The position numbers and the translations under genes were made by a program. A stretch of DNA of 64,000 bases from assembly GCA_022599775.1 (NCBI GenBank), contig JAHZLQ010000033.1, positions 62,001 through 126,000 on the forward strand, written 5' to 3'. A model generated the notes under the pieces. The model was not told the origin of the DNA and made no database searches. It saw only the letters and a list, made by a program, of their open reading frames with translations. Positions 3,001 through 21,751 of the stretch are shown here, piece by piece (positions within the stretch are counted from its first letter, which is position 1; each line of letters begins with the position of its first letter). Source of the stretch: Gammaproteobacteria bacterium. GTDB lineage: Bacteria > Pseudomonadota > Gammaproteobacteria > Nevskiales > Nevskiaceae.

Positions 3001-4681
3001 TTCCTATGCCGAGCCGGCGCCGGCGGTTCCGTCGAATGCGGTCCCGGCCTCGACCTACCCCTCGACATCGACGGTCCAGCAGAGCAACGGAACGGTTTCG
3101 ATTCCTTACGGTCCGCTGGGCAGTAACGCCAGCGTGGTACAGGCCGGTCCGTCGTATTACTCGTCGCAATCCGGCGGCACGCAAACCCAGACCCGCAGCG
3201 AGGTCTACACGCAGGGACAGGCTCAGACCGTTCGTCGCTTCGATCCACCGAGTGGTCAGGCTCCGTACCCGGCGGGCGGGCTGCCGCCCGCATCGGCGCC
3301 GCGCATGAGCACGCAGCTGTCGTCGTCCAGCGGCGACCCGGCGCTGCGTCGCGAGTTGTCGCGGGAGATCAATGATATTCGCGGCGCCTATGTCAGCCAG
3401 CCGGCACCGCAGGCGCCCGTCATGAGCTATGGCAATGATCCGGCGCTGACGGTGCCGAGCTTCGCACGACGCGAACTGCCGCCGACACGCGAACGCAGCG
3501 ACCTGATCCGCGAGATCGAGTCGATCGAGGCGAACCGTGCGGCCAATGCCGGACTCGGCGTGGCCTTGCGCAACCGTGACGGTCAGAGTGGCCTGGGGCG
3601 CCTGTTGGACATCGAGCTTCCGGTCGAGGCAAGCATCGCCGGCACCGAGGCCGGGCGTTTCGCGCTCCGCGCGGTTCCGGTGTTTCTCGATGCCGGCTCC
3701 GTGTCCGGGCGTGATCAGCTTCTGTTCGGGGCCATGCCGCTGGTCGACGACGCCACCAGTTATCGATTCGCACAGGATGCCAGCGGCGTTGCCGTCGGCG
3801 GCGTCTATTCGATCGCGGACTTGCGTCTGGACGTGGGATCGTCGCCGCTCGGATTTCCGGTGGAGACCATCGTTGGTGGGCTGCAGTGGAAGCCGCAGGT
3901 CGACAATGTGTCCTTCAAGATCGATCTGTCGCGCCGATCGGTGACCGACAGCCTGCTGTCTTATGCAGGCACGCGCGATCCCGCCACCGGCCGCGTCTGG
4001 GGTGGCATCACCCGCACCGGTGGCCGCATCGACATGTCCTATGACCTGGGGCGCTATGGCGTCTACGTTAACGGCAGCTACCACGTGCTCGATGGCGAGA
4101 ACGTCGATCAGAACAATGCCTTCGAAGCCGGTGGCGGTTTCTATACGCGTGGCGTGCAGCGTCGCGGATTCCGCGTGACCTACGGCCTCAACCTCACGAC
4201 GTTTTTCTACGACAAGAATCGCCGCTACTACACCTTTGGTCATGGCGGCTATTTCAGTCCACAGTTCTACATGAGCGTGGGCGTGCCGTTCGAGATCAGC
4301 GGATCGCGTGATCGCTTCTCGTACCGGATCGGCGGCGCGATCGGTCTGCAGGCCTTCAAGGAGGATGGTGCCGCGCTGTTCCCGACCGATGCCGGGCTCC
4401 AACTCGCGGTGGAAGATCTGCTGCTGGACAGCGATGACGAGGATCTCGTCAGTGGTTACAGCGACAGCAGTCAGAGTGGTGTCGGCTACAACTTCAGCGG
4501 CGCCTTCGAATACCTGATCGCGCCACAGCTGACGGCCGGTGCCTTGCTGAGTCTGGACAACGCCAAGGACTACAATGAATCCTTGGTCATGGGCTATGTC
4601 CGTTACTGGTTCTCGGCACAACCGCGCGTATCGTCACCGCCGACGATGCTGCGCCCGTACTTCAATTTCGGGAGCGACTGA
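2..4681 (+). CDS. bcsC: Cellulose export subunit BcsC, 5'-partial
   Basis: Outer-membrane export component of bacterial cellulose secretion: a periplasmic TPR superhelix leading the glucan to a C-terminal beta-barrel. The gene enters from the left edge (first full codon at base 2), so start and signal peptide are not visible. The in-frame GTG at 35 is not the start, because TPR sequence continues upstream of it (RQGRYQEAVESY). Of 1559 visible residues, TPR units run to about 725. A Pro/Ser/Thr-rich stretch fills about 730-1150. The BCSC_C barrel module follows from about 1165, with SVTDSLLSYAGTRDP, WGGITRTGGR and YFSPQFYMSVGVP. E. coli BcsC is about 1157 aa in total, so this protein is unusually long, mainly because of the linker. 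Other bcs genes are expected to the left, outside the window. Confidence 0.95.
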   Translation, partial: GLARQGRYQEAVESYRTLFGGEVPGGRLGLEYYQTLAGVDGKWGEARQGIERLAKDYPDDPVYRLALAQHLTYREDSRRDGISRLAQLADNAAVSVQARQAWRQALLWLSTDPNDRRYYQTYLDEYGNDPEVAAKLRGVQEAVASVTPQADPRVAEVQEAYESLNGGELAAASARFEDLLRDDPRDADGLGGLGIVRLRQQRFAEAASLLEQASIADPKRSQRWSEALSSARFYALVREAETARQAAQPERAEQLLRSALAADGVDDDSDVRSSLADVLAEQDEIGEAEQLYRQILSRHPDNMNATRGLVGLLTRSNRIQEAIQLAERLPPELRNQIGSLSQLKAQYLRDQATEATEAGDQQGAENLLKQALLLDPNSVWVRLDLARIYQQQKRTREANTLVDGILSGNPNMGEAIFVKALLLSEQQRWYDALQLMEQIPLATRDTGMVQLQHRLWVRYQTERAGVYARYGRVQDALELLRRVEPQVDNAPELLGALATAYAEVGDEGRALGYIRAALSGTPDPDPGLRLQYASLLFKLRQDAEFEVVMTDLVQRGGLTQQQALDLANLRVAYRLRQADLVREEGDLARAYDYLAPLLQVNPNDPRLLMALARLYNDSEEYDHAAQIYDRVLQTDPENLDAYKGSIGAALARNDLETANQLLNEAFNLDPQNARLYALAGRLARARGEDGRALEYYQRALALDAQQGAQEFGGRYAPQLYLLDPAAAGSRVLPVPSDRGGFSFRPSSAQSPRRSDSARAREAAWQPARGGGYLIKTAAPRRSAQPEKSQTPEERVEPVPRASVDQGIRPSIYSIEPAPMRAEPEPVTAQTTPASQTGADAPRAHETPGVFLKLSTQSNGERVTRSAETPWTLPPPPSTRSGSAAVPLQMETLQAPPFPPPRLSQRPDYRSGSESSLSAPATMPALPTYSAPSTRRELTTAPDPNYQFMPEVSRSTASSAPAPAPMAPGSQAPLYPPSSRSAVTSSTYRQATSTQVQPYSSSYAEPAPAVPSNAVPASTYPSTSTVQQSNGTVSIPYGPLGSNASVVQAGPSYYSSQSGGTQTQTRSEVYTQGQAQTVRRFDPPSGQAPYPAGGLPPASAPRMSTQLSSSSGDPALRRELSREINDIRGAYVSQPAPQAPVMSYGNDPALTVPSFARRELPPTRERSDLIREIESIEANRAANAGLGVALRNRDGQSGLGRLLDIELPVEASIAGTEAGRFALRAVPVFLDAGSVSGRDQLLFGAMPLVDDATSYRFAQDASGVAVGGVYSIADLRLDVGSSPLGFPVETIVGGLQWKPQVDNVSFKIDLSRRSVTDSLLSYAGTRDPATGRVWGGITRTGGRIDMSYDLGRYGVYVNGSYHVLDGENVDQNNAFEAGGGFYTRGVQRRGFRVTYGLNLTTFFYDKNRRYYTFGHGGYFSPQFYMSVGVPFEISGSRDRFSYRIGGAIGLQAFKEDGAALFPTDAGLQLAVEDLLLDSDDEDLVSGYSDSSQSGVGYNFSGAFEYLIAPQLTAGALLSLDNAKDYNESLVMGYVRYWFSAQPRVSSPPTMLRPYFNFGSD

Positions 4682-4683
4682 GC

Positions 4684-5184
4684 ATGAAGCCGCCAATCCT
4701 GCCGTTCTGCCTGGCCGCCCTGGTGCTGGCCTCCTGCGCCGCCGACGATCCCAGGGCCGAAGGGCTCAATGTTCGCGCGCCGTATGGAAGCGTGGCAGGA
4801 CAAGGCGATGTCGCGAACTGGTCGCCGGGCTCGTCCTATTCGAACATGGGACGACAGAGCCTGGCGCAAGGCCAGCCTGAGCGGGCCGCGTATCAATTCG
4901 AGGAGGCGCTCAAGGTCAATCCCTTCGATCCGGTGGCGCTCAATAACCTGGCCGTGGCCAAGGCTGAGCAGGAGGACTACCACACCGCGGTCGATCTGCT
5001 CAGCCGCGCCGCCCGATTGGCGCCGGATGACGTGGAGATCGCCGCCAATCTGGCGCGACTCCGCAACTGGGTCAACAGCGAGGCACTCAGTGGTGTCGAC
5101 TCCGAGGACTGGAGTGGGCAGGCCGATCTTTCGGCTCTTCCACCACCGCCGCCCGATCTGTGGAATCCGCAGGTCTATCGCTAG
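4684..5184 (+). CDS. TPR lipoprotein downstream of bcsC
   Basis: A 166-aa predicted lipoprotein of unknown function. The N-terminus (MKPPILPFCLAALVLASC) is a lipoprotein signal with lipobox LASC and Cys18 as the acylated residue. Residues about 50-120 form two or three TPR-like helical pairs (GQPERAAYQFEEALKVNPFD, then LNNLAVAKAEQEDYHTAV). The C-terminus is Pro-rich (LPPPPPDLWNP). The ATG lies 2 bases after the bcsC stop, so the two genes are very likely co-transcribed and perhaps translationally coupled. By context it may be an accessory of the cellulose exporter that docks to the BcsC TPR domain in the periplasm. That role is inference; no named bcs gene is recognised in it. Confidence 0.85.
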   Translation: MKPPILPFCLAALVLASCAADDPRAEGLNVRAPYGSVAGQGDVANWSPGSSYSNMGRQSLAQGQPERAAYQFEEALKVNPFDPVALNNLAVAKAEQEDYHTAVDLLSRAARLAPDDVEIAANLARLRNWVNSEALSGVDSEDWSGQADLSALPPPPPDLWNPQVYR

Positions 5185-5231
5185 GTATTTCGCCCTTCGC
5201 GGCAACGATTCCCCCTGGACAAGGAACCGCC

Positions 5232-6446
5232 TCAGGACGAACAGCTCGCCCGTTTGATGAGGACATCCCGACCATCCTGATTGTCGGAGTATCCCTGCCA
5301 CACGGCGATCCAGGCCGAGGCGGAGATCGGGCCAGGCGCCAGTCGCGGCAATAGCTGAGTGTACGGTGCTGCCGCGTCATCGAGACCTCGCGCAGCGCCG
5401 AGTGGTCCGCTGAGGCCCAGGCACTGCAGGAAAATCCCATCTCCATGCGCCACCAGCGCCACGCGATCGGCTTCGTCGATGGCCAGTCCGGCATAGCGCT
5501 GCAGGCGCGCGTCGGTGGCGTATTCCGCCCCCAGGGGCTGGCTGTCAGCCGAAAACGCGCGGACCCGAACGGCGGCGGCGGTGAAATCCGCCATGAAGCT
5601 GTCCCAGGCCAGATAGAAGCTGCCGTCCGATGCGACCGATACGCTGGGGCGGTCGACCAGCAGATCCGTGGACCCGCTGGCGTCGAAGACTCGCCCGAGC
5701 GCCGAGCCATTGCTGTCATAGACCCGCGCCTGGATGGTGCCGGCCCCATCCGACCGGAGCCAGGTCACAACCGTCTGACCGGCAGCGTTGCTCGCGACGC
5801 GTGGAAACAGCAGCGGATTACTTAGGTCGGTGTGCACGGTCTGGACGGCGTCGACGGCAACAGCGTCGGAATCAAAGCGACGAATCGCGACCACGCGCTG
5901 GTCCAGCAGGCCCAGGAGTGGACGGCGTTCCTGCCAGACCACGGTGATTCCGCCGGCGGCGTCCATGGCGATATCCGCTTGCGGCTGGACCGTGAACGTC
6001 CCTTCATCGACCCGGACCTCCGGACCACGGGCTGCGCCGGCAGCCGAGAAGGTTCGCAACTTGATCGCAAGTCCTTGCGGGGACTCGCTGTCCCAGGCGA
6101 TCGCAAAGCGTCCGTCTGGCGCCATCGCGACCGAGGGACGGCTCTGTCGACTTCGGGTTTCGTTGTTGACCCTGAATTCATCACCGGCTGCCGTGCCCGC
6201 GGCCGTATACCGGCGCGCATAGATTCCGCTGAGGCTGCCGTCCTGATCGTCGCTCTGCCAGACGACGACGTAGCGCCCGTCGGCTGCGGAGGCGATCGCA
6301 GGCAGAGCCTGATCGCCCGTGCTGAACTGATTGACCACGGGATCGGGATTGCTTGCACCTGCTTCGGTTGCCGCTCGGGCATCTTCGCCGTCGAAGGCAA
6401 CCCAACCGAGCGCGGTCGCCAGCAGCAGCATTCCGCAACGATTCAT
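5232..6446 (-). CDS. Secreted repeat protein, probable beta-propeller
   Basis: A 404-aa secreted protein of unknown function. It begins with a signal peptide (MNRCGMLLLATALGWVAF... cleaved near ARAA). Six or seven repeats of about 50 residues follow, of the form DGRYVVVWQSDDQDG..IYARRY..AG. Later copies are DGRFAIAWDSE, GGITVVWQE, GQTVVTWLRSDG and DGSFYLAWDS. This type of repeat is common in extracellular proteins and probably folds as a beta-propeller. The ATG at 6446 is chosen because it overlaps the stop of the upstream esterase gene as ATGA and because it gives a proper signal peptide; a longer reading frame upstream is only overlap. The coupling to the esterase suggests a joint extracellular role, but no substrate is evident. 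Confidence 0.8.
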   Translation of the reverse strand: MNRCGMLLLATALGWVAFDGEDARAATEAGASNPDPVVNQFSTGDQALPAIASAADGRYVVVWQSDDQDGSLSGIYARRYTAAGTAAGDEFRVNNETRSRQSRPSVAMAPDGRFAIAWDSESPQGLAIKLRTFSAAGAARGPEVRVDEGTFTVQPQADIAMDAAGGITVVWQERRPLLGLLDQRVVAIRRFDSDAVAVDAVQTVHTDLSNPLLFPRVASNAAGQTVVTWLRSDGAGTIQARVYDSNGSALGRVFDASGSTDLLVDRPSVSVASDGSFYLAWDSFMADFTAAAVRVRAFSADSQPLGAEYATDARLQRYAGLAIDEADRVALVAHGDGIFLQCLGLSGPLGAARGLDDAAAPYTQLLPRLAPGPISASAWIAVWQGYSDNQDGRDVLIKRASCSS

Positions 6447-7363
6447 GGCCGGGAAAACCGTTGGAAGAAATTCCACATTTCCACCGTTGCGTCGATGTCT
6501 TTTGTCGTCGGACCATATTCCGGGACAAAGCTGCCGGCACCGGGCCAGGTGTGCCCGCCACCCTCCACACGGTAGAAGCCGACCGCGCTGCCGGCCGAGC
6601 AATGGTCGTAGTTCAGCGTGCTGACCGTGGTCTCGTCGTCCACCTTATCGGGCACGGCCCGCTCAAGCGGCGTACCGGTACAGCCATTGAAGCTCGCGAA
6701 CCGTTCAAATGCTTCCATCGGCGTGAGATTGCCCAGCGTTCGCGTGTCGTAGCCCACCTTGTCGTCAGCCGTTCCGTTGATCAGCAAAACCGGTACCGGA
6801 ACCGATGGCGAACAACTTCGGTTCACCGATTGATGCAGCGTGGACGCCACCGAGGCGACCGCGGCAATCAGGTCCGGCCGTTCACAGGCCATGTACAGAG
6901 ACATGGCGCCACCGCGCGAATAGCCGGCCATATAGACCCGGCTGTGGTCGATCGGGTCCTGCGCAACAGCGTCTTGTATGAGCTCTGAGAGAAAGCCGAC
7001 GTCGTCGGACAGGCGCAGGTCCGTCGGCGAATCGCTCCAGTCGCCGAAGGTGCCTTGTGGCAGATAGACCCAGGCGCCCTGGTCTCGCACCCACTGCATC
7101 GCCACCGTGAGATTCGCCATGGCTTGCGGTGTGCCGCCGAAGTAGTGAAGGAGCAGCACAGCCGGTGCTGAAGCGGCGGACGGTGGGATCGCGGGGCGCA
7201 GCACCAGGATTTCGCGATCACGACCCTTGAAGTCGACATGCCGCAGTTCCTGCAACACGTTTTCGTAGGGAAAGACGCGGGCCTCGGCAGTGCTTGTCGT
7301 GCACAAGCCCATCAACGCGGCCAGTAGAAAACGGACTCTTCGGCGCTCAACCTTGGCGGTCAT
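6443..7363 (-). CDS. Secreted PHB-depolymerase/feruloyl-esterase family hydrolase
   Basis: A 306-aa alpha/beta hydrolase of the LpqC / esterase-PHB depolymerase (CE1-like) family with a signal peptide (RFLLAALMGLCTTSTAEA). The lid-oxyanion region is LLLHYFGGTPQ. The nucleophile elbow is GYSRGG, a candidate acid lies in INGTADDKV, and the catalytic His is in GGGHTWPG. Family members cleave short polyester or aryl-ester bonds outside the cytoplasm; the true substrate here is not shown. The gene is followed by, and overlaps by 4 bases, the gene for a secreted repeat protein, so the two proteins are probably made together. Four Cys residues in the mature part could form disulfides, as is usual for the family. 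Confidence 0.85.
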   Translation of the reverse strand: MTAKVERRRVRFLLAALMGLCTTSTAEARVFPYENVLQELRHVDFKGRDREILVLRPAIPPSAASAPAVLLLHYFGGTPQAMANLTVAMQWVRDQGAWVYLPQGTFGDWSDSPTDLRLSDDVGFLSELIQDAVAQDPIDHSRVYMAGYSRGGAMSLYMACERPDLIAAVASVASTLHQSVNRSCSPSVPVPVLLINGTADDKVGYDTRTLGNLTPMEAFERFASFNGCTGTPLERAVPDKVDDETTVSTLNYDHCSAGSAVGFYRVEGGGHTWPGAGSFVPEYGPTTKDIDATVEMWNFFQRFSRP

Positions 7364-12898: not shown

Positions 12899-13534
12899 AT
12901 GAATGTCACCGAGATGGTTCTGGGTGCGGGCGCACTGGGCACGGCGGCCTTCGGCATCGTCGAAGCGTTCAAATGGTCGGCCTTGGGAGAGGCCGGATTC
13001 AAGCGACTCAAGAGCATGCTTGGAGAAGCATTACTTCGTTCATTGTCAACTTCGTATGGAACAGACTTCGAGTTATTTCTACGTGCACAGTATCGCAATC
13101 CCGAAGGCGTTGGTGAACTGCGACGCAGTCTGCGTCAGGGGATGCGCATCGGTTTGAGGCCGGAACTGGCGCCTGCCTTGGCTGCGCAAGTCGGCACCGT
13201 GGACGCGGCAGAATTGACTCTCGTGGCCGAGCGGCTGATGCACGGAGACCCACTCGACGACGCATTGCGCACCGTGCTCGGGCGTTATGAACTGGCCGTG
13301 GACGCGCGGATCGATGCCGGACTGACGCTGGCGATCGATGGCTACCAGGGCGCGATTCGCGCCGCCGCCTCCTTGCTCGCCATCATTCTGGCCTTGCTGG
13401 CGGCATTCACGCTGGGGCGACCGTGGTGGCACGGCGCGCTGCTGGGCGTGGCGGCGGTACCGCTGGCGCCGGTCGCCAAGGATGTGGTGTCCGCCTTGCA
13501 GGCGGCGACGCGCGCCTTGCGCGCACGCTCATGA
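12899..13534 (+). CDS. Hypothetical membrane protein
   Basis: A 211-aa protein not recognised by family. A hydrophobic N-terminal segment (about 6-24) is followed by a soluble, charged middle region. Two hydrophobic segments lie near the C-terminus (about 152-195: AAASLLAIILALLAAFTL and WWHGALLGVAAVPLAP). ATG is preceded by GGAG at good spacing. Its stop overlaps the next start as ATGA, so it is produced together with the following alpha/beta hydrolase. The pair may form a membrane-anchored hydrolase unit; this is inference only. Confidence 0.75.
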   Translation: MNVTEMVLGAGALGTAAFGIVEAFKWSALGEAGFKRLKSMLGEALLRSLSTSYGTDFELFLRAQYRNPEGVGELRRSLRQGMRIGLRPELAPALAAQVGTVDAAELTLVAERLMHGDPLDDALRTVLGRYELAVDARIDAGLTLAIDGYQGAIRAAASLLAIILALLAAFTLGRPWWHGALLGVAAVPLAPVAKDVVSALQAATRALRARS

Positions 13535-14343
13535 TTCACGTCTGCGATTTCCGCGAGCGCTCGTCCGGCGGCGCCGTGGTGCCTGGGCGTCTGGTGGCGG
13601 GTGACGCTGCGCGCCTGTTCACGGCCGAGCGCGTCTGTTTCCTGCTGCACGGATTCAACGTGAACCGCGAGGACGGAATGGCGTCGCTGAACCGTCTGGC
13701 CGCAGCGCTGCCGCTCGGCTCGGAAGCCGACGAACTGGTCTGTGCTCTGTGGCCAGGCGACCATTGGTTGGGCGCGCTTTCATATTCGTTCGAGAATCGG
13801 GATGCCGACGACAGCGCGACGGCCCTGATGCAGTTCGTTGAACTGGCCTGCCCGCGACGGCCGACACTGTCCTTCGTTGCGCACAGCCTGGGTTGCCGCG
13901 TCGCGATGCGCGCGGCAGAGCTCGCCCGGCGTGGGCGCTGGCGGATCGATCAGGTTTGCCTGCTGGCTGCCGCCATCGACGACGACAGCCTCGCCTCGTC
14001 GTCCGTATACCGCGCGGCGAGCCGATCGGCGCAGCGCGTGGCGACACTGCACTCCCACCAGGACCGGGTGTTGCGCTTCGCCTATCCGGCCGGCGATCTG
14101 TTGCAGGCCTTCGTGTTTGCCGACGAGCTTGCGCGCGGCGCCCTGGGCTATCACGGGCCGCGTCCGCGACGAGGGCCGCCCGAGGCGGTGCCGGAGTCGG
14201 TCACCGCTCAAGGCATCGCCGATGCGCGCCGCGCCGGGCACGGCGACTATCTACCCGACGAGCCGCCGAACGAGGAGCAACGTTCGGCGGCGGCCTACGT
14301 CGACGAAGTACTCTCCGGCGTCGCACAGCCGCGATACCCCTGA
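13531..14343 (+). CDS. Alpha/beta hydrolase (DUF900-like)
   Basis: A 270-aa predicted serine hydrolase. The oxyanion segment is FLLHGFNVNRE (His40-Gly41), the nucleophile elbow AHSLG has Ser119, and LHSHQDRVLRFAY holds a candidate catalytic Asp. The overall look resembles DUF900-type alpha/beta hydrolases. No signal peptide is seen. ATG at 13531 is chosen over earlier in-frame codons because it makes an ATGA overlap with the membrane-protein gene and gives a normal N-terminus. Substrate unknown. Immediately downstream, on the opposite strand, lies the mnmA 3'-end duplicate. Confidence 0.8.
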   Translation: MIHVCDFRERSSGGAVVPGRLVAGDAARLFTAERVCFLLHGFNVNREDGMASLNRLAAALPLGSEADELVCALWPGDHWLGALSYSFENRDADDSATALMQFVELACPRRPTLSFVAHSLGCRVAMRAAELARRGRWRIDQVCLLAAAIDDDSLASSSVYRAASRSAQRVATLHSHQDRVLRFAYPAGDLLQAFVFADELARGALGYHGPRPRRGPPEAVPESVTAQGIADARRAGHGDYLPDEPPNEEQRSAAAYVDEVLSGVAQPRYP

Positions 14344-14360
14344 TCCGTGCGCGTGCGTTC

Positions 14361-14520
14361 GATCTCGGCGCCGCCGAGGCATTCGTCGCCGTCGTAGAGC
14401 ACCGCGTATTGTCCGGCCACGGCTGCGCGTTGCGCTTGCGCGAAATGCAGATCGACGCACCCGTCATCGTGCAGTGAGCCTGTGCAGGCCTGCAGGGCCT
14501 GGCGATGGTGGACGCGCACA
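14361..14520 (-). pseudogene. Diverged duplicate of the mnmA 3' end
   Basis: Read on the minus strand this segment encodes RVHHRQALQAC, then AQRAAVAGQYAVLYDG and ECLGGAEI, which match the last ~55 residues of the intact MnmA at 20612-21751. The two DNA stretches (14361-14520 and 20621-20780) align without gaps at a constant offset of 6260 bases; by hand count about 120 of 160 bases agree. Homology stops abruptly near 14520: a TGA appears in frame just upstream and nothing of the catalytic MnmA domain is present. On the other side the frame runs on antisense into the hydrolase gene instead of stopping after GGAEI. It is therefore a non-functional 3' remnant, not a gene. Confidence 0.85.
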
Positions 14521-14570
14521 TAGTTCGGGGCCGATCACAATGCTCGTTCTGGTCGGTGCCGTGTGTGATG

Positions 14571-14858
14571 CAGCGCCTGATGGGCGAGGACGCCTACCAG
14601 CTCGCGCTCGTGCCGAGTTCCGAGAGCGACGTGATCGCCGAAGAAGCGCGCCTCATGCTGGCGCGCCTGCGCATTGCCCCGTCCCGGCCGGCGGTCGCGC
14701 GTGCCACGCTCGAAACGGCGCTCGGCCGCGTCGAAGCCAGGCTCGGCGCCGAGGCGCAGCAAGTGCAGACGGCGCGGGAGCCGCTGCGCAGCGGCCTCGC
14801 GAAGCTCACCCGGATGGGCGATCTCGCTGCCGGGGCAAGCAACGTCACGTCGCCGTAA
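14571..14858 (+). CDS. Hypothetical short reading frame, possibly truncated
   Basis: About 95 codons with the high third-position GC seen in real genes here, and a helical, charged product (e.g. MGEDAYQLALVPSSESD, then AVARATLETALGRVEARLG). No family is recognised. No ribosome site is seen at ATG 14571; an earlier in-frame GTG at 14505 would start inside the mnmA remnant. It may be the 3' end of a gene whose front was lost at the island border, or chance coding. It ends 49 bases before the TonB-receptor start. Confidence 0.3.
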   Translation, partial: QRLMGEDAYQLALVPSSESDVIAEEARLMLARLRIAPSRPAVARATLETALGRVEARLGAEAQQVQTAREPLRSGLAKLTRMGDLAAGASNVTSP

Positions 14859-14907
14859 CAGGGCCTCCACATACTGGCTTGGCCACAGACTGTCGGGGAG
14901 TCGACTA

Positions 14908-17481
14908 GTGAATTCACGTCCAACGACGTGCTGCGCGTTTTCGGGTGCGCGGCAGAAATTGTCGCGCTTGTTCGGGAAGCTTGCGATCGGGGCGATGGCT
15001 TGCGTATCCGTAGCCGCGGCGCAGGAGCCTGGCGATCCGGCCGTGCTCGAAGAGGTCGTCGTCACGGCGACGCCGATCAAGGACAGTATCGAGGAATCGC
15101 TGCAGCGCCAGCAGGCCGCCGAGAACGTCGTCAATGTGATCGCCTCGGACACGATCGGCCGCTTCCCGGATACCACGGCCGCCGCCGCGCTGGCGCGCCT
15201 GCCAGCCGTGGCCGTGCAGCGCGACCAGGGGCAGGAGCGCTACATCCAGGTGCGCGGCGCGCCGGCGCGCTGGACAGCGGTCGCCTTCGACGGAATCAAC
15301 GTCCTCGGCGCCGAGGAGCGCATCTTCCGGTTCGATTCCGTGCCGGCAGCGCTGATCGATTCGGTCGTGCTCAACAAGACGCTGACGCCGGACATGCCGG
15401 CCGAGGCGCTGGCCGGTCGCGTCGACATCCAGACCTTTTCGGCGCTCGACAACCCCGGTTTCACCGGTTATTTCGATCTCGGCCTGGGCTACGTCGATTT
15501 GGCGGACGGCGACCAGGAACAGTACGCGGCACGCCTGGGCTGGAGCGATGAGCGCTGGGGCGTCGTCGTCGCCGGCTCGCACTTCATGATGGAGCAGCAG
15601 ACCGACAACAACGAGTTCGACTACGACGAAGCCGGCGCGCCGACTCTGTTCGATTTTCGCAAGTATCAACTGGAGCGCGAAACCAACTCGTTCAGCGGCA
15701 AGCTCGAATTCGCGCCCGATGCCGACCATCGCTTCGTGCTGTCCTCGCTGTACACCGAGTTCCTCGATCACGAGCTGCGCAACATGTACCAGCTCGACCT
15801 CGACGGTGCGCAGAGCGGTACGCGTACCGCCGCGGAAGGGGATCTGGTGCAGGTGCCGATGTCCGGCTATCTGCAGGACGGCAACTACGAGAACTCCACG
15901 TTCACCAACACCCTGGGCGGCGATCATCGGCTCAGCGACTGGGACCTGGGCTGGCGGCTGAACTACACGGAAACCGAGCAGGTGACGGACCTGCCGCTGG
16001 TGATCCAGATCCAGACCGATCCGTCGCAGATGCCCTCGCTCCACTACGATCGCAGCGACCCCAGGTTCCCGCGCGTGTCGCTGTACACCACCGACACCAG
16101 CGGCGAGACGCCGGTGCGCGGCACGCCGCTGGCGTTTCTGCCGCAGACCGGCTTTGGCCTCAATCTGCTCAACAAGTACGGCACGACGAGCGAGTCCGAA
16201 GCCTACATGGCGAGCCTCGAAGCCGGTCGCGACTGGACGCTCTGGGGCGCCGACAGCCGCCTGAGCTTCGGCCTTCAGTACGACAGCCGCGAAGCGACGG
16301 GTTCGCCGGGGCCGGTCGCGTTTCCCGTGCCGCTGGACTATGCGCCGTATGTCACCGACGAGCCCTGGGACACGGACTTCGAGCGCGGCGTGCAGGGCAC
16401 TTATGTCGACAACGTCGGCCTGCGCCAAGAACTGGAACGGACGCTCGAGGAGCAGGGGCTGACGGTACCGCAAGACCCGACGCTCGCCTACGAGGTGACC
16501 GAGGAGATCCTCGCCGGTTTCGCCATGAACCGCTGGACCTTCGGTCGTCATCAGGTACTGGCCGGCGTCCGCGTCGAATCCGTCGACATCACCAGCGACG
16601 GCACGATCAAGGAAGAGAACGGCGATCCGCAGGCGCTGTCGGTCAGCAAGTCGTACACGGACGTCTTCCCGAGCATTCACTGGAACCTGAATGTGCGCGA
16701 TGACCTCAAGTTCCGCCTGTCCGGCGTTTCGGGCATCGCCCGTCCGACGTTTGCCGAGCAGCGTTCCAGCGCGGTCATCGTCGACGACGAGCAACTCGTC
16801 GACGGGGGCAACCCCGATCTGAATCCGGAAACCGCCTACGGCATCGACAGTTCCCTCGAATGGTACTTCGCGCGGGCCTCGTTGCTGTCGCTGAACCTGT
16901 TCTACCGGCTCGTCGACGACGTCCTGTTTCCGTCGGTCACGACGGTGAGCGACGATCGCTTCGATACCGAAGGCGCGGACCGCACCGGCTACGACTACAG
17001 CACGACGCTCAACGGCAGCGACGGCGAGCTCTACGGTGCCGAGCTGGTCTACACCCAGCCTTGGGCCTTCCTGCCGCCCGTGCTGTTCGGCTTCGGGTTC
17101 GAAGGCAGCGTCAGCGTTCTGGACGGCGAGTTCAAGACCCCCGAGGGACGGACTGCTGGGTTTCCGGGCACATCGGATACCGTCATGAACGCCGCGTTCT
17201 TCTACGAGAACTTCGGCTGGTCACTGCGCCTGAGCTGGCAGTGGCGCAGCGAGTGGATCGACGATATTTCGACGGACGCCGACAGCGACTATTACTGGGA
17301 CGAAACCGAGCGGCTCGATTTCTCGGCGCGCTATCAGGTCAACGACTGGCTGACCGTCTACGGTGACGCCAACAATCTCACCGACGAGCTGGGCGTACGT
17401 TACCAGGGCAGTCCCGAGCGGCCCGTGGAGGTCGAGGGCTTCGGGCGCCGGTACATGATGGGCCTGCGCGCGGTGTTCTAG
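14908..17481 (+). CDS. TonB-dependent outer-membrane receptor (cassette gene 1)
   Basis: An 857-aa outer-membrane active transporter energised by TonB. The GTG at 14908 is chosen because GGGGAG lies 7 bases upstream and a signal peptide follows (LFGKLAIGAMACVSVAAAQ). A TonB-box-like EEVVVTATP follows, then a plug with GRFPDTTAAAALARLPAV and QERYIQVRGA, and a 22-strand-type barrel ending in an aromatic-rich C-terminus (RRYMMGLRAVF). The plug style resembles the Xanthomonas/Caulobacter TonB receptor family, whose ligands are often carbohydrates or other complex nutrients. Next in line are a lipoprotein phosphatase and a secreted PHP phosphoesterase, so a phosphorylated ligand is plausible (inference). 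Confidence 0.93.
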   Translation: MNSRPTTCCAFSGARQKLSRLFGKLAIGAMACVSVAAAQEPGDPAVLEEVVVTATPIKDSIEESLQRQQAAENVVNVIASDTIGRFPDTTAAAALARLPAVAVQRDQGQERYIQVRGAPARWTAVAFDGINVLGAEERIFRFDSVPAALIDSVVLNKTLTPDMPAEALAGRVDIQTFSALDNPGFTGYFDLGLGYVDLADGDQEQYAARLGWSDERWGVVVAGSHFMMEQQTDNNEFDYDEAGAPTLFDFRKYQLERETNSFSGKLEFAPDADHRFVLSSLYTEFLDHELRNMYQLDLDGAQSGTRTAAEGDLVQVPMSGYLQDGNYENSTFTNTLGGDHRLSDWDLGWRLNYTETEQVTDLPLVIQIQTDPSQMPSLHYDRSDPRFPRVSLYTTDTSGETPVRGTPLAFLPQTGFGLNLLNKYGTTSESEAYMASLEAGRDWTLWGADSRLSFGLQYDSREATGSPGPVAFPVPLDYAPYVTDEPWDTDFERGVQGTYVDNVGLRQELERTLEEQGLTVPQDPTLAYEVTEEILAGFAMNRWTFGRHQVLAGVRVESVDITSDGTIKEENGDPQALSVSKSYTDVFPSIHWNLNVRDDLKFRLSGVSGIARPTFAEQRSSAVIVDDEQLVDGGNPDLNPETAYGIDSSLEWYFARASLLSLNLFYRLVDDVLFPSVTTVSDDRFDTEGADRTGYDYSTTLNGSDGELYGAELVYTQPWAFLPPVLFGFGFEGSVSVLDGEFKTPEGRTAGFPGTSDTVMNAAFFYENFGWSLRLSWQWRSEWIDDISTDADSDYYWDETERLDFSARYQVNDWLTVYGDANNLTDELGVRYQGSPERPVEVEGFGRRYMMGLRAVF

Positions 17482-17516
17482 CGGTGTCACCAGCCGTATT
17501 CCGGGAGAACCAGCGA

Positions 17517-18671
17517 ATGAAAACTCAAACCAGTGCCGCGCTGCTGGTCAGCGCCCTGCTCGCGGCTTGTGGCGGTGGTGGCGACAGTGCGTCGCCGCCG
17601 CAATCCGTGGCCACGGCCGCGCCCGCCTTCGTCGAGGTCGAGACCGCCGAGCTGCAGCGCGAAGGCGAGCAGCTGAGCCTGAGCTGGAGCATCGAGGGAG
17701 CGGGCGCGCCGGTGGACGTTTATCTCGCGAGTTCGCCGGATGCCGCCTCCAAGCGGACGCTGATCTCGGACGACGATGCGGACGGCCGTCACGTCTTCTC
17801 AGCGCCTGCGCTGCCGCGGCCCTACGTCTACCTGCAGCCGGCGGCCGGTGGCGAGGGCCTGTGGGTCGCCGAGCGCCTGCTGCCGCTCGAAGGCGGCCAC
17901 AATTTTCGCGATCTCGGCGGCTACGAGACGGCCGACGATAGCCATGTCCGCTGGGGCACGCTGTTCCGCTCCGGCACGATGGCGGGTCTGACCGATGAGG
18001 ACTACGCCTACCTGCAAAGCCTCGGCATCGAGGTGATCTGCGACCTGCGCACGAGCGAGGAGCGCCAGCGCGAGCCCACCGACTGGCAGCGCATGAACCC
18101 GGACCTCGAATACCTGAGCTGGGACTACGCGATGTCCGACGGCGGCGGTTCGCTGTTCGAGGTCCTGGGAGAGAATCCATCTCCCGCGCGGGTACAGGAA
18201 CTCTTCGAGGGTTTCTATCGTGACTTGCCGGATCGCTTCGCGCCGCGTTACGCCGCCATGTTCGAAAAGCTGGTCCATGGCGAAGCGCCGCTGGCCGTGA
18301 ACTGCTCGGCCGGCAAGGACCGCACGGGCGGGGCCTCGGCGCTGCTGCTGACCGCGCTCGGTGTGCCACGTGCGCAGGTTGTGGCCGACTACGCGCTGAG
18401 CGAAAAACTCGTGGATTTCGGCTCTGAGGCCCGCGAGAAAGCGGCCGAAAACCCGAGCTATGCGTTGATGCTGAAGTGGGACCCTGAATCGCTGCGCGTT
18501 CTGACCGGCAGCGATCCGTCACTGATCCGTGCGATGTTCGCAGCGATCGAGGCCAACTACGGCAGCGTCGAGAACTACTTCGAGCAGAAGCTGGACGTGG
18601 ACGCCGCGGACCTGGCAGCCCTACGCCGGCAATACCTGGTCCGTTCCGGCACCGAGCTCGTCCAGCGCTGA
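17517..18671 (+). CDS. Lipoprotein tyrosine-type phosphatase (Y_phosphatase3 family, cassette gene 2)
   Basis: A 384-aa lipoprotein: signal MKTQTSAALLVSALLAAC with lipobox LAAC and Cys18, then a Gly-rich spacer. A beta-rich N-terminal part (about 40-120) precedes the phosphatase domain (NFRDLGGYET, FRSGTMAGL, VICDLRTSEER). The P-loop is NCSAGKDRTGG with the catalytic Cys263 and Arg269 of the CX5R signature. The family relative MptpB has HC at this spot and acts on phosphoinositides and phosphotyrosine; here His is Asn. ATG 17517 is chosen because GGGAGA lies 8 bases upstream. It follows the receptor gene by 35 bases, so they are co-transcribed. Likely role: removing phosphate from a ligand in the cell envelope (inference). 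Confidence 0.88.
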   Translation: MKTQTSAALLVSALLAACGGGGDSASPPQSVATAAPAFVEVETAELQREGEQLSLSWSIEGAGAPVDVYLASSPDAASKRTLISDDDADGRHVFSAPALPRPYVYLQPAAGGEGLWVAERLLPLEGGHNFRDLGGYETADDSHVRWGTLFRSGTMAGLTDEDYAYLQSLGIEVICDLRTSEERQREPTDWQRMNPDLEYLSWDYAMSDGGGSLFEVLGENPSPARVQELFEGFYRDLPDRFAPRYAAMFEKLVHGEAPLAVNCSAGKDRTGGASALLLTALGVPRAQVVADYALSEKLVDFGSEAREKAAENPSYALMLKWDPESLRVLTGSDPSLIRAMFAAIEANYGSVENYFEQKLDVDAADLAALRRQYLVRSGTELVQR

Positions 18672-18762
18672 ACCATAGCCGCATCATCGCTTCTGCGCCG
18701 CATGGCGTGCTGGCTCGCAGAGCCTCTCTCGCCCTGCCGCACGCACGCCAACGGAGCTGACA

Positions 18763-20235
18763 ATGGTCCATAGAATCGCACTCGTCCATTTGTGGATCAG
18801 CGCGCTGTTCGCGGGGGTCGCGGCGGCGCATGAGACCCGCGTCAGCGACCCCGGCGAAGCCCGATGGCTCGCCGGTGATCACCACATTCACAGCCGCTAT
18901 AGCGTCGGCTGGGATCGCGCGAGCGATCCGCCCTCGCCAATCGTGGGCGGCGATGCCATTTATCCCATACCCATGAACGCCGTCATGGCAAGGCGCTTCG
19001 GGCTCGACTGGATGGTGACCACCGATCACGGCGGACCCCAGCATTCGAAGGTCAACCTCGAGCATGCCTATCCCGAGCTGCTCGAATCGCGCGCCGCCGT
19101 ACCGGAAGTTCTCCAGTTCTTCGGCATGGAATTCGATACTCCGGGTGCGGATCACTCCAGCCTGATCATGCCGCACTCGCACGAAGAGGCGGACGACCTG
19201 CATCGCATCGAGAGCCGCTTCAACAAGCGTGAGCCCTGGCCGGAGGATCCCGAGTGGGATACCGAGCCGCGCATGCTCCAAGCGCTGAGCGAGATGAAAG
19301 CGCTCGCGCGCCCCCCCTTGGTGATCGCGCATCATCCCTCCCGATCCGCTCCCGGGCTGGGCGAATACGGGATGACCGAGCCATCGGAACTCCGCGCCTG
19401 GAACGATCTGGCGCCTGATATTGCCGTAGGCATGGAAGGCGCTCCCGGGCACCAGGCGACCGCCCAGATGGATCGTGGCCTGTCGCCGACCCTGTACGAA
19501 CAGTATTTCGGAGACCAGCGGCCGCGTGGCGGCTATCGGGACTACCCCACAATGGGCGGCTATGACCAGATGACCGCCAGGCTGGGAGGCTTCTGGGATT
19601 CCATGCTCGGTGAGGGCCGCCGTTGGTGGATCACCGCCAATTCCGACAGCCACATCCACTGGAGCGAAGGCGGCGCGGATTTCTGGCCGGGCGAGTATTC
19701 CAAGACCTATGTCTTGGCCGAAAAGCGCTACCAGGCCATCTTCGACGCCATCCGCGCCGGACGGATCTTCGTCACCACCGGCGATTTGGTTTCGGAACTG
19801 TGGGTCCAGGCCAGTACCGGCGACCGCCGAGTCGGCATCGGGGAAGCACTCAAGGTGGCCCCGGGGACGAATGTTTCCGTGAGCATCCGCTTCATGGACC
19901 CGGACACGCAGAATCACCACGGCGATAGCCCGGAGGTCAAACGTGTGGACCTGATCGTCGGTCAGGTCTCAGGCGGTGCGGCAGCGGCCGACAGCGACCA
20001 CAACCCGTCCGCCGAAGTACTGGCCCGTTTCACAGTGGACGACTGGCAAAGGGATGGCGCTTACAAAGTCATCAACTATCGGTTGGACGATGTGCGCCAC
20101 GCGCTCTATCTGCGCGTCAGAGGCACCAACACCGATGAGCTGGAGCCCGAGCCCGACGAAGACAACGAGGATGCCTGGCAGGACCTCTGGTTCTACTCCA
20201 ACCCGATCTTTATCGAGTTGCTGGAAGGCGAATGA
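18763..20235 (+). CDS. Secreted PHP-domain phosphoesterase (cassette gene 3)
   Basis: A 490-aa protein with a signal peptide (RIALVHLWISALFAGVAAA) and a PHP-type metal hydrolase fold. All expected metal motifs are visible in order: DHHIHSRYS (His41, His43), MVTTDHGG, FFGMEFDT, IAHHPSRS and ANSDSHIHW. A C-terminal beta-rich domain follows (from about residue 360). PHP enzymes hydrolyse phosphoesters or related bonds using two or three metal ions. GGAG 6 bases before ATG supports the start. A 91-base gap separates it from the phosphatase gene, with no terminator seen, so the three genes are probably one operon. The exact substrate is unknown. Confidence 0.85.
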   Translation: MVHRIALVHLWISALFAGVAAAHETRVSDPGEARWLAGDHHIHSRYSVGWDRASDPPSPIVGGDAIYPIPMNAVMARRFGLDWMVTTDHGGPQHSKVNLEHAYPELLESRAAVPEVLQFFGMEFDTPGADHSSLIMPHSHEEADDLHRIESRFNKREPWPEDPEWDTEPRMLQALSEMKALARPPLVIAHHPSRSAPGLGEYGMTEPSELRAWNDLAPDIAVGMEGAPGHQATAQMDRGLSPTLYEQYFGDQRPRGGYRDYPTMGGYDQMTARLGGFWDSMLGEGRRWWITANSDSHIHWSEGGADFWPGEYSKTYVLAEKRYQAIFDAIRAGRIFVTTGDLVSELWVQASTGDRRVGIGEALKVAPGTNVSVSIRFMDPDTQNHHGDSPEVKRVDLIVGQVSGGAAAADSDHNPSAEVLARFTVDDWQRDGAYKVINYRLDDVRHALYLRVRGTNTDELEPEPDEDNEDAWQDLWFYSNPIFIELLEGE

Positions 20236-20620: not shown

Positions 20621-21751
20621 GATCTCTGCGCCGCCCAGGCACTCCTGGCCGTCGTAGAGCACCGCGTACTGACCGGCGACCGCAGCCCGCTGCGCCCGCT
20701 CGAAGCGCAGTTCCAAGGCGCCGTCCGGAAGCTGCGTGACGGCGCAGGCCTGCAGCGCCTGGCGATGGCGGAGCCGCGCGTGCAAGCGCTGCGGCAGCGG
20801 CTCCGGCTGCCGGATCCAGTGGAATGGGCGCGTGCGCAGCTGCGTGCTCATCAGCGACGGATGCGCCGCGTCCTGGGAGACCTGCAGCCGATTGCCGGGC
20901 GCATGCTTGGCCACGACATACCAGGGTGCGTCACGCGCGCCGCGCACACCGCCGACTGACAGGCCGCGACGCTGCCCCAGCGTGTAGAAGCTCAGGCCCT
21001 GATGCTGGCCGATGACCTGACCGCTGTCGTCGACGATCGGTCCCGGTTGCGGCTTGAGATAGTGCGCCAGGAACTCACGAAACGGACGCTCGCCGATGAA
21101 GCAGATTCCGGTGGAGTCCTTGCGTCGGTGGTTGGGCAGGCCGGCCTGCGTCGCCAGTTCGCGGACCTCGGGCTTGGTCAGGCCGCCGAGCGGAAACAGC
21201 ACGCGCGAGAACTGCTCGCGTGCCACCGCTGCCAGAAAATAGGTCTGATCCTTGTTGTCGTCCGCCGCGCGCAGCAGGCGCGGGCCGTCGTCGGCCATTT
21301 CCAGGCGCGCGTAGTGTCCGGTCGCCACGAAATCCGCGCCCAGGCGCGTGGCATATTCGAGGAACGGCTGGAACTTGACCTCGCGATTGCACAGCACGTC
21401 AGGGTTCGGTGTCAGCCCGGCCTCGTAGTCGGCCAGGAACCTGGCGAACACGCGCTCGCGATATTCGCGTGAGAAATCCACGCGGTGCAGCGGAATCTCC
21501 AGTTCGTCGGCGACCTCGCGCGCGGACTGGAAATCCTCGGCGGAGTTGCAATAGGCCTGCTCGTCCTCAGCCCAGTTGACCATGAACAGACCGGACACGC
21601 GGTAGCCCTGACGCTTGAGCAGCAGCGCGGAAACGGCGGAGTCGACGCCGCCGGACAGGCCGACGATGACGTGGGGAGCGGGGGAGGACAAGGTGCGGTT
21701 CTTGGAAAGGGCGGTGTCGGTGTGCTCAGTAGTGATAACGGCATTGCGCAA
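20612..21751 (-). CDS. mnmA: tRNA-specific 2-thiouridylase MnmA
   Basis: Transfers sulfur to U34 of Lys, Glu and Gln tRNAs, activating the base with ATP. The PP-loop GLSGGVDSAV is at residues 31-40; the two catalytic cysteines are Cys121 (NPDVLCNREVKF) and Cys217 (DSTGICFIGERPF). The C-terminal beta-barrel ends with YAVLYDGQECLGGAEI. The 379-aa product is slightly longer than E. coli MnmA because about 20 extra residues precede the first strand. The start at 21751 overlaps the yoeB 3' end by 26 bases; a later TTG is possible. In most gammaproteobacteria mnmA follows a nudJ-type gene directly and precedes hflD-purB. Here yefM-yoeB intervenes upstream and neither hflD nor purB is present downstream. 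Confidence 0.96.
   Translation of the reverse strand: MRNAVITTEHTDTALSKNRTLSSPAPHVIVGLSGGVDSAVSALLLKRQGYRVSGLFMVNWAEDEQAYCNSAEDFQSAREVADELEIPLHRVDFSREYRERVFARFLADYEAGLTPNPDVLCNREVKFQPFLEYATRLGADFVATGHYARLEMADDGPRLLRAADDNKDQTYFLAAVAREQFSRVLFPLGGLTKPEVRELATQAGLPNHRRKDSTGICFIGERPFREFLAHYLKPQPGPIVDDSGQVIGQHQGLSFYTLGQRRGLSVGGVRGARDAPWYVVAKHAPGNRLQVSQDAAHPSLMSTQLRTRPFHWIRQPEPLPQRLHARLRHRQALQACAVTQLPDGALELRFERAQRAAVAGQYAVLYDGQECLGGAEIRA

Follow-up and report, generated by a model that had tools for sequence, protein, structure and literature searches.

In soil and water, organic phosphate and above all phytate make up a large pool of phosphorus; to our knowledge, the route by which such phosphate passes through the Gram-negative outer membrane is poorly known. 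The locus considered here lies in a 64,000-nucleotide stretch of a Nevskiaceae gammaproteobacterium (the window; contig JAHZLQ010000033.1, positions 62,001 to 126,000) and consists of three co-directional genes at 14908–20235 of the forward strand, for a TonB-dependent receptor, an exported cysteine phosphatase of the PF13350 family and an exported PHP-family metallo-phosphoesterase. Among the closest described systems is a TonB receptor gene beside a beta-propeller phytase gene in Citromicrobium JL354, for which phytic acid has been proposed as the substrate (Tang et al. 2012, PMC3400609). Pi-induced receptor/phosphatase loci, named phosphate utilisation systems (PUS), have been reported in plant-associated Bacteroidetes, as has a Pi-induced pair of beta-propeller phytase and receptor in Flavobacterium johnsoniae, Fjoh_1367/1368 (Lidbury et al. 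2020, PMC8115612). Since receptor/phytase pairs and PUS loci are published, systems of this general kind are known. The original statement that no named system has this trio therefore holds in a narrower form, because the papers searched gave a precedent for the kind but not for the trio. Comparative analysis of the three genes suggests that they are probably a unit that scavenges phosphorylated organic molecules at the outer membrane.

Comparison with known systems

The window locus resembles the receptor/phytase pairs in that the receptor gene adjoins the gene for an exported phosphatase, an arrangement shared by the sister receptors of the window receptor, whose sister clade (support 100/99) contains phytase-linked receptors. 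The difference is that the window locus encodes a PHP enzyme beside a cysteine phosphatase and no phytase. With the PUS loci it shares the co-localisation of a TonB-linked outer-membrane transporter with periplasmic phosphomono- and phosphodiesterases. However, the PUS loci, which are Pi-induced, contain SusC/SusD pairs, whereas the window receptor belongs to TIGR01782 and no SusD-type lipoprotein is found among the neighbouring genes scanned at the locus.

Phosphoinositides are substrates of PF13350 relatives such as MptpB, whose activity on them depends on the Lys and Asp residues of the active-site loop (PMC3091653). The window phosphatase shares the Cys, Gly, Lys, Asp and Arg residues of the CX5R loop with these atypical lipid phosphatases of the MptpB/LipA type. 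The predicted likeness to MptpB holds for these residues but not for the strict HCXXGKDR motif, as Asn replaces the His of MptpB-type enzymes. The window phosphatase also differs in being exported, in having an extra N-terminal domain and in being genetically tied to a TonB receptor. The PHP enzyme has the fold and the full metal-ligand set of PHP phosphoesterases such as TM0559 (2anu), and its C-terminal half is weakly similar to CehA/McbA (NF038032). Unlike these proteins, it is exported and forms a closely conserved family of its own (55–72% identity across phyla). Searches of open-licence papers turned up no direct precedent for PHP with phytase or for a receptor with a tyrosine phosphatase, nor did they yield a PF13350-linked receptor clade, a fold swap along one receptor branch or a phytase–PHP fusion.

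Recurrence of the three genes

Recurrence of the trio in other genomes had been set beforehand as the check on the prediction, and the trio was found in three further lineages, making four with that of the window. A Polycyclovorans metagenome-assembled genome of the same family (G033, locus L055) contains a receptor, a phosphatase and a PHP enzyme that are 53%, 51% and 69–72% identical to those of the window, respectively, with the PHP gene inverted yet still adjacent. The trio is also present in Gammaproteobacterium BRH_c0 (L054), with the PHP gene at a distance of 2.6 kb, and in a sphingomonad (L101), where it is divergent. Because the trio recurs elsewhere, the grouping of the three genes is not due to chance, and recurrence with varied gene order is a stronger sign of a functional tie than a kept order would be.

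The idea of one obligate three-gene set was rejected, as most PHP loci lack PF13350 and most receptor/PF13350 pairs lack PHP. Judged from the sequences compared, the conserved core is the receptor plus an exported phosphatase, and the PHP enzyme is an optional addition with its own wider distribution, which includes Gram-positive bacteria. The single set assumed originally is thus replaced by a pair with an accessory enzyme.

The receptor branch and its phosphatase partners

A search of 299 sphingomonad genomes with the window receptor gave 27 receptors picked by receptor similarity alone, the known PHP loci being excluded. An exported phosphatase is encoded within 1.5 kb of 26 of them; at the exception, L152, the distance to an alkaline phosphatase gene is about 2.6 kb. 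The 26 partners are mostly PF13350 proteins and otherwise belong to the Pfam families SurE, purple acid phosphatase, alkaline phosphatase and beta-propeller phytase. In contrast, at the 20 control TIGR01782 receptors, which are relatives of L071, the same queries detected no exported phosphatase neighbour.

The receptor tree contains two sister clades, each with support of 100/99. One is linked to protein tyrosine phosphatases and SurE and includes the window receptor, and the other is linked to phytase, purple acid phosphatase and alkaline phosphatase; PHP genes occur in both. The receptor-linked PF13350 proteins likewise form one clade of 22 rows (100/99), separate from 26 other family members, with L022 as the sole outsider. 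This receptor branch is, as these comparisons indicate, dedicated to exported phosphatases of interchangeable fold. Partners from five phosphatase families replace one another along a constant receptor branch, a pattern that is hard to explain unless their shared function is phosphate removal.

The same swapping, together with the absence of such neighbours from the control receptors, argues against the explanation that the enzymes are unrelated to the receptor ligand, the PF13350 protein acting on envelope proteins or regulating the receptor and the genes being neighbours by history. Protein-tyrosine phosphatase activity is possible in PF13350 proteins (PMC3091653) and the three genes are separable, as the inverted PHP gene of G033 illustrates, so that this explanation has some basis; we consider it quite improbable. 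The proposal of phospho-ligand uptake with dephosphorylation in the envelope thus passed the comparative tests, namely recurrence and the contrast between branch and control receptors, without the view of the trio as a single set. As membership of this receptor branch predicts a phosphatase neighbour, the branch would also provide a testable list of organophosphate receptors.

Exported SurE-family proteins are encoded directly downstream of branch receptors at L111, L122, L123 and L153, an unusual setting for SurE. The genome of the window contains two other loci with TIGR01782 receptors. At L145 (G000:C68:53500-64000, 3039–6966, reverse strand), the gene after the receptor encodes P0007, a beta-propeller protein that resembles phytases but is divergent (PF02333, 28 bits). 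At L146 (G000:C78, 4081–7735), the third receptor is followed by a 315-residue exported protein, P0008, without a Pfam match.

Distribution of the PHP family and its links to phytase

Eighteen PHP relatives at 55–72% identity were found in 84,980 species genomes, distributed among Pseudomonadota, Gemmatimonadota, Verrucomicrobia and Bacillota. In a sphingomonad metagenome-assembled genome (L059, 2072–4537), a single frame of 821 residues behind a TonB receptor gene joins a beta-propeller phytase (PF02333, 208 bits, residues 25–354) to a PHP enzyme of this family, and this fusion points to an uncharacterised hydrolase family. A separate phytase gene adjoins the PHP gene in three other sphingomonads (L100, L102 and L103). 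The PHP gene is present in 10 of the 299 sphingomonad genomes, and any phytase is present in four of those 10; the distance between the phytase and PHP genes is 18–150 nucleotides in three of these four. Under a simple model of random placement in about 3 Mb, the chance of such proximity is about 2e-9. PHP genes also lie beside genes for purple-acid-phosphatase-type enzymes (L062, L064, L069, L070/L098 and L099).

The PHP gene is not a universal mark of phytate uptake, a role that was rejected because Gram-positive and plasmid homologues lack such a context. An apparent fusion of the N-terminal part of a purple acid phosphatase to PHP (L104:7057-9078) was not counted as support, since the phosphatase domain is truncated, suggesting a join by deletion. 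In L066, L067 and L076 (Bacillus-type and Deinococcus genomes), a HupE/UreJ-type membrane protein gene follows the PHP gene in place of a TonB receptor gene, and on the mobilizable Novosphingobium plasmid NZ_CP039696.1 (L073) an IS6-family transposase gene lies between the PHP gene and a TonB receptor gene.

Proposed function and ligand

In the proposed process, the TonB receptor would carry a phosphorylated ligand into the periplasm. There, two enzymes of unrelated chemistry, the cysteine phosphatase of the PF13350 family and the metallo-phosphoesterase of the PHP family, may then take phosphate off the ligand, and the fold of the partner phosphatase would be interchangeable. Free phosphate, possibly together with the dephosphorylated ring, would enter through other transporters; the trio locus itself encodes no inner-membrane transporter.

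Because phytase is among the partner folds and is fused to the PHP family of the window elsewhere, inositol phosphates, named as an example ligand in the original prediction, are the leading candidate, favoured by the four genomes in which PHP and beta-propeller phytase are fused or adjacent. As the specific ligand they are still a tentative choice, with somewhat less than an even chance. As a whole, a scavenging unit that most plausibly serves inositol phosphates is on balance the likely explanation. In a bolder version, a distinct TonB receptor branch would serve inositol phosphates or a closely related phospho-ligand together with plug-in exported phosphatases that represent six unrelated folds. 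The PHP family would then be a novel class of inositol-phosphate hydrolases, completing the work of the phytases or of the cysteine phosphatase. This version appears doubtful.

The unit could alternatively import nucleotides or general phosphomonoesters by means of nucleotidase-like enzymes and a broad organophosphate receptor. Sister receptors adjoin SurE (L111, L122, L123 and L153), alkaline phosphatase (L126) and purple acid phosphatases, all of which commonly use nucleotides or mixed monoesters. However, beta-propeller phytase, the enzyme with which PHP is fused or paired in four genomes, has a narrow specificity for phytate. In addition, PF13350 relatives of known activity prefer phosphoinositides (PMC3091653). 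Import of nucleotides or general monoesters is accordingly rated as rather unlikely, next in order after the scavenging of inositol phosphates.

Several observations weigh against the unit and ligand proposed here. As to the receptor survey, the 27 receptors include several that are closely related to one another, and some of the queries for phosphatases (SurE, alkaline phosphatase and purple acid phosphatase) were derived from these same loci. The SurE and alkaline phosphatase partners of sister receptors equally point to nucleotides or general phosphomonoesters, which therefore stay among the possible ligands. PHP homologues occur in Streptomyces, Bacillus-type and Deinococcus genomes without any TonB receptor, indicating that PHP is not specific to this pathway. 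No phytase (PF02333) is encoded at the window locus, the single weak PF02333 match in the genome being on another contig. Scans of the trio locus revealed no promoter (nor a terminator), and a simple scan with the Escherichia coli consensus found no Pho box above background upstream of the operon or its relatives, the best site matching 9 of 14 positions. Finally, the trio locus is dispensable, as it has been lost in the congener G003.

Features of the three genes

The feature coordinates are collected in Table 1. As predicted, all three genes are on the forward strand, each preceded by a purine-rich ribosome site (GGGGAG, GGGAGA and GGAG, respectively), and all three products carry export signals. 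The intergenic gaps are 35 nucleotides between the receptor and phosphatase genes and 91 nucleotides between the phosphatase and PHP genes.

Table 1. Positions of the three genes, their motifs and the flanking repeat in the window.
Feature	Position	Strand	Remarks
TonB-dependent receptor (TIGR01782), 857 aa, signal peptide; GTG start	14908–17481	+	Profile match; closest relatives adjoin exported phosphatases
Candidate TonB box EEVVVTA of the receptor	15049–15069	+	Read from sequence
Exported PF13350 (Y_phosphatase3) phosphatase, 384 aa, N-terminal domain, predicted lipoprotein (LLAAC, Cys18)	17517–18671	+	
Active-site CX5R loop NCSAGKDRTGG, aa 262–272	18300–18332	+	Reference motif HCXXGKDR (PMC3091653)
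Exported PHP-family metal-dependent phosphoesterase, 490 aa; PHP domain and C-terminal beta-rich part	18763–20235	+	
PHP motif DHHIHS (H41, H43)	18877–18894	+	
PHP motif TDHG (D88, H89)	19021–19032	+	
PHP motif GMEF (E123)	19123–19134	+	
PHP motif DHSS (H131)	19150–19161	+	
PHP motif AHHP (H191)	19327–19338	+	
PHP motif SDSH (D295, H297)	19642–19653	+	
Remnant of mnmA 3' end	14361–14517	-	Repeats the end of the intact mnmA gene (20621–20779) in direct orientation, 76%; the pair brackets the trio

The receptor scores 514 bits against TIGR01782 (curated cut-off 310) and contains the PF07715 plug and the PF00593 barrel; besides the GTG, there is an alternative in-frame start codon, ATG, at 14992. 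Its scores against the siderophore, heme and B12 receptor models are below the cut-offs. These scores bear on a further explanation, in which the cargo of the receptor is a metal complex, such as iron chelated by phytate or by some other phosphorylated compound, and the metal is freed when the phosphatases destroy the chelator. Iron complexes are the classic cargo of TonB receptors, inositol phosphates chelate iron, and the adjoining phosphatases would fit such chelator destruction. The assignment to TIGR01782 rather than to a siderophore, heme or B12 model argues against it, however, and neither iron-uptake genes nor a sigma/FecR pair is seen at the window locus, so that metal import is improbable compared with phosphate scavenging.

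The phosphatase scores 220 bits against PF13350 (cut-off 22.2), with the CX5R nucleophile loop included, and a search of the PDB shows its resemblance to 8dhi and MptpB. The window protein, a predicted lipoprotein, contains a lipobox, but its orthologue in G033 carries a signal peptide of the ordinary type, so that lipidation is not conserved.

The PHP enzyme has no Pfam match, and a sequence search against the PDB gave no match. Its score against NF038032 is 67.1 bits, confined to the C-terminal part and below the curated cut-off of 80. The top fold match of its AlphaFold model (pLDDT 85) is TM0559 (2anu), with an E value of 9e-8. The predicted metal motifs are all present, and the presumed ligands H41, H43, D88, H89, E123, H131, H191, D295 and H297 are invariant in 19 homologues. 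The fold and the conserved metal ligands place the enzyme in the PHP superfamily.

History of the locus

The congener G003 (L051, G003:C3, around 3326) lacks exactly the 6.7 kb corresponding to window positions 13375–20106, and the flanks are 94% identical. G003 retains the 3' end of the PHP gene, roughly its final 43 codons, now fused to an upstream frame. The exact gap and the leftover 3' end of the PHP gene indicate that the trio was lost there by deletion.

This deletion, the absence of PHP from 368 other sampled Gammaproteobacteria and the bracketing of the trio by a remnant and an intact copy of mnmA would also fit a decaying, horizontally acquired island that is functionless in this strain. 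However, the three reading frames are intact and the catalytic residues are conserved, making decay very improbable. Within the family, the best match of the mnmA remnant is in another genus (78–79%). This hints that the remnant may have been acquired with foreign DNA, a possible horizontal footprint though no proof.

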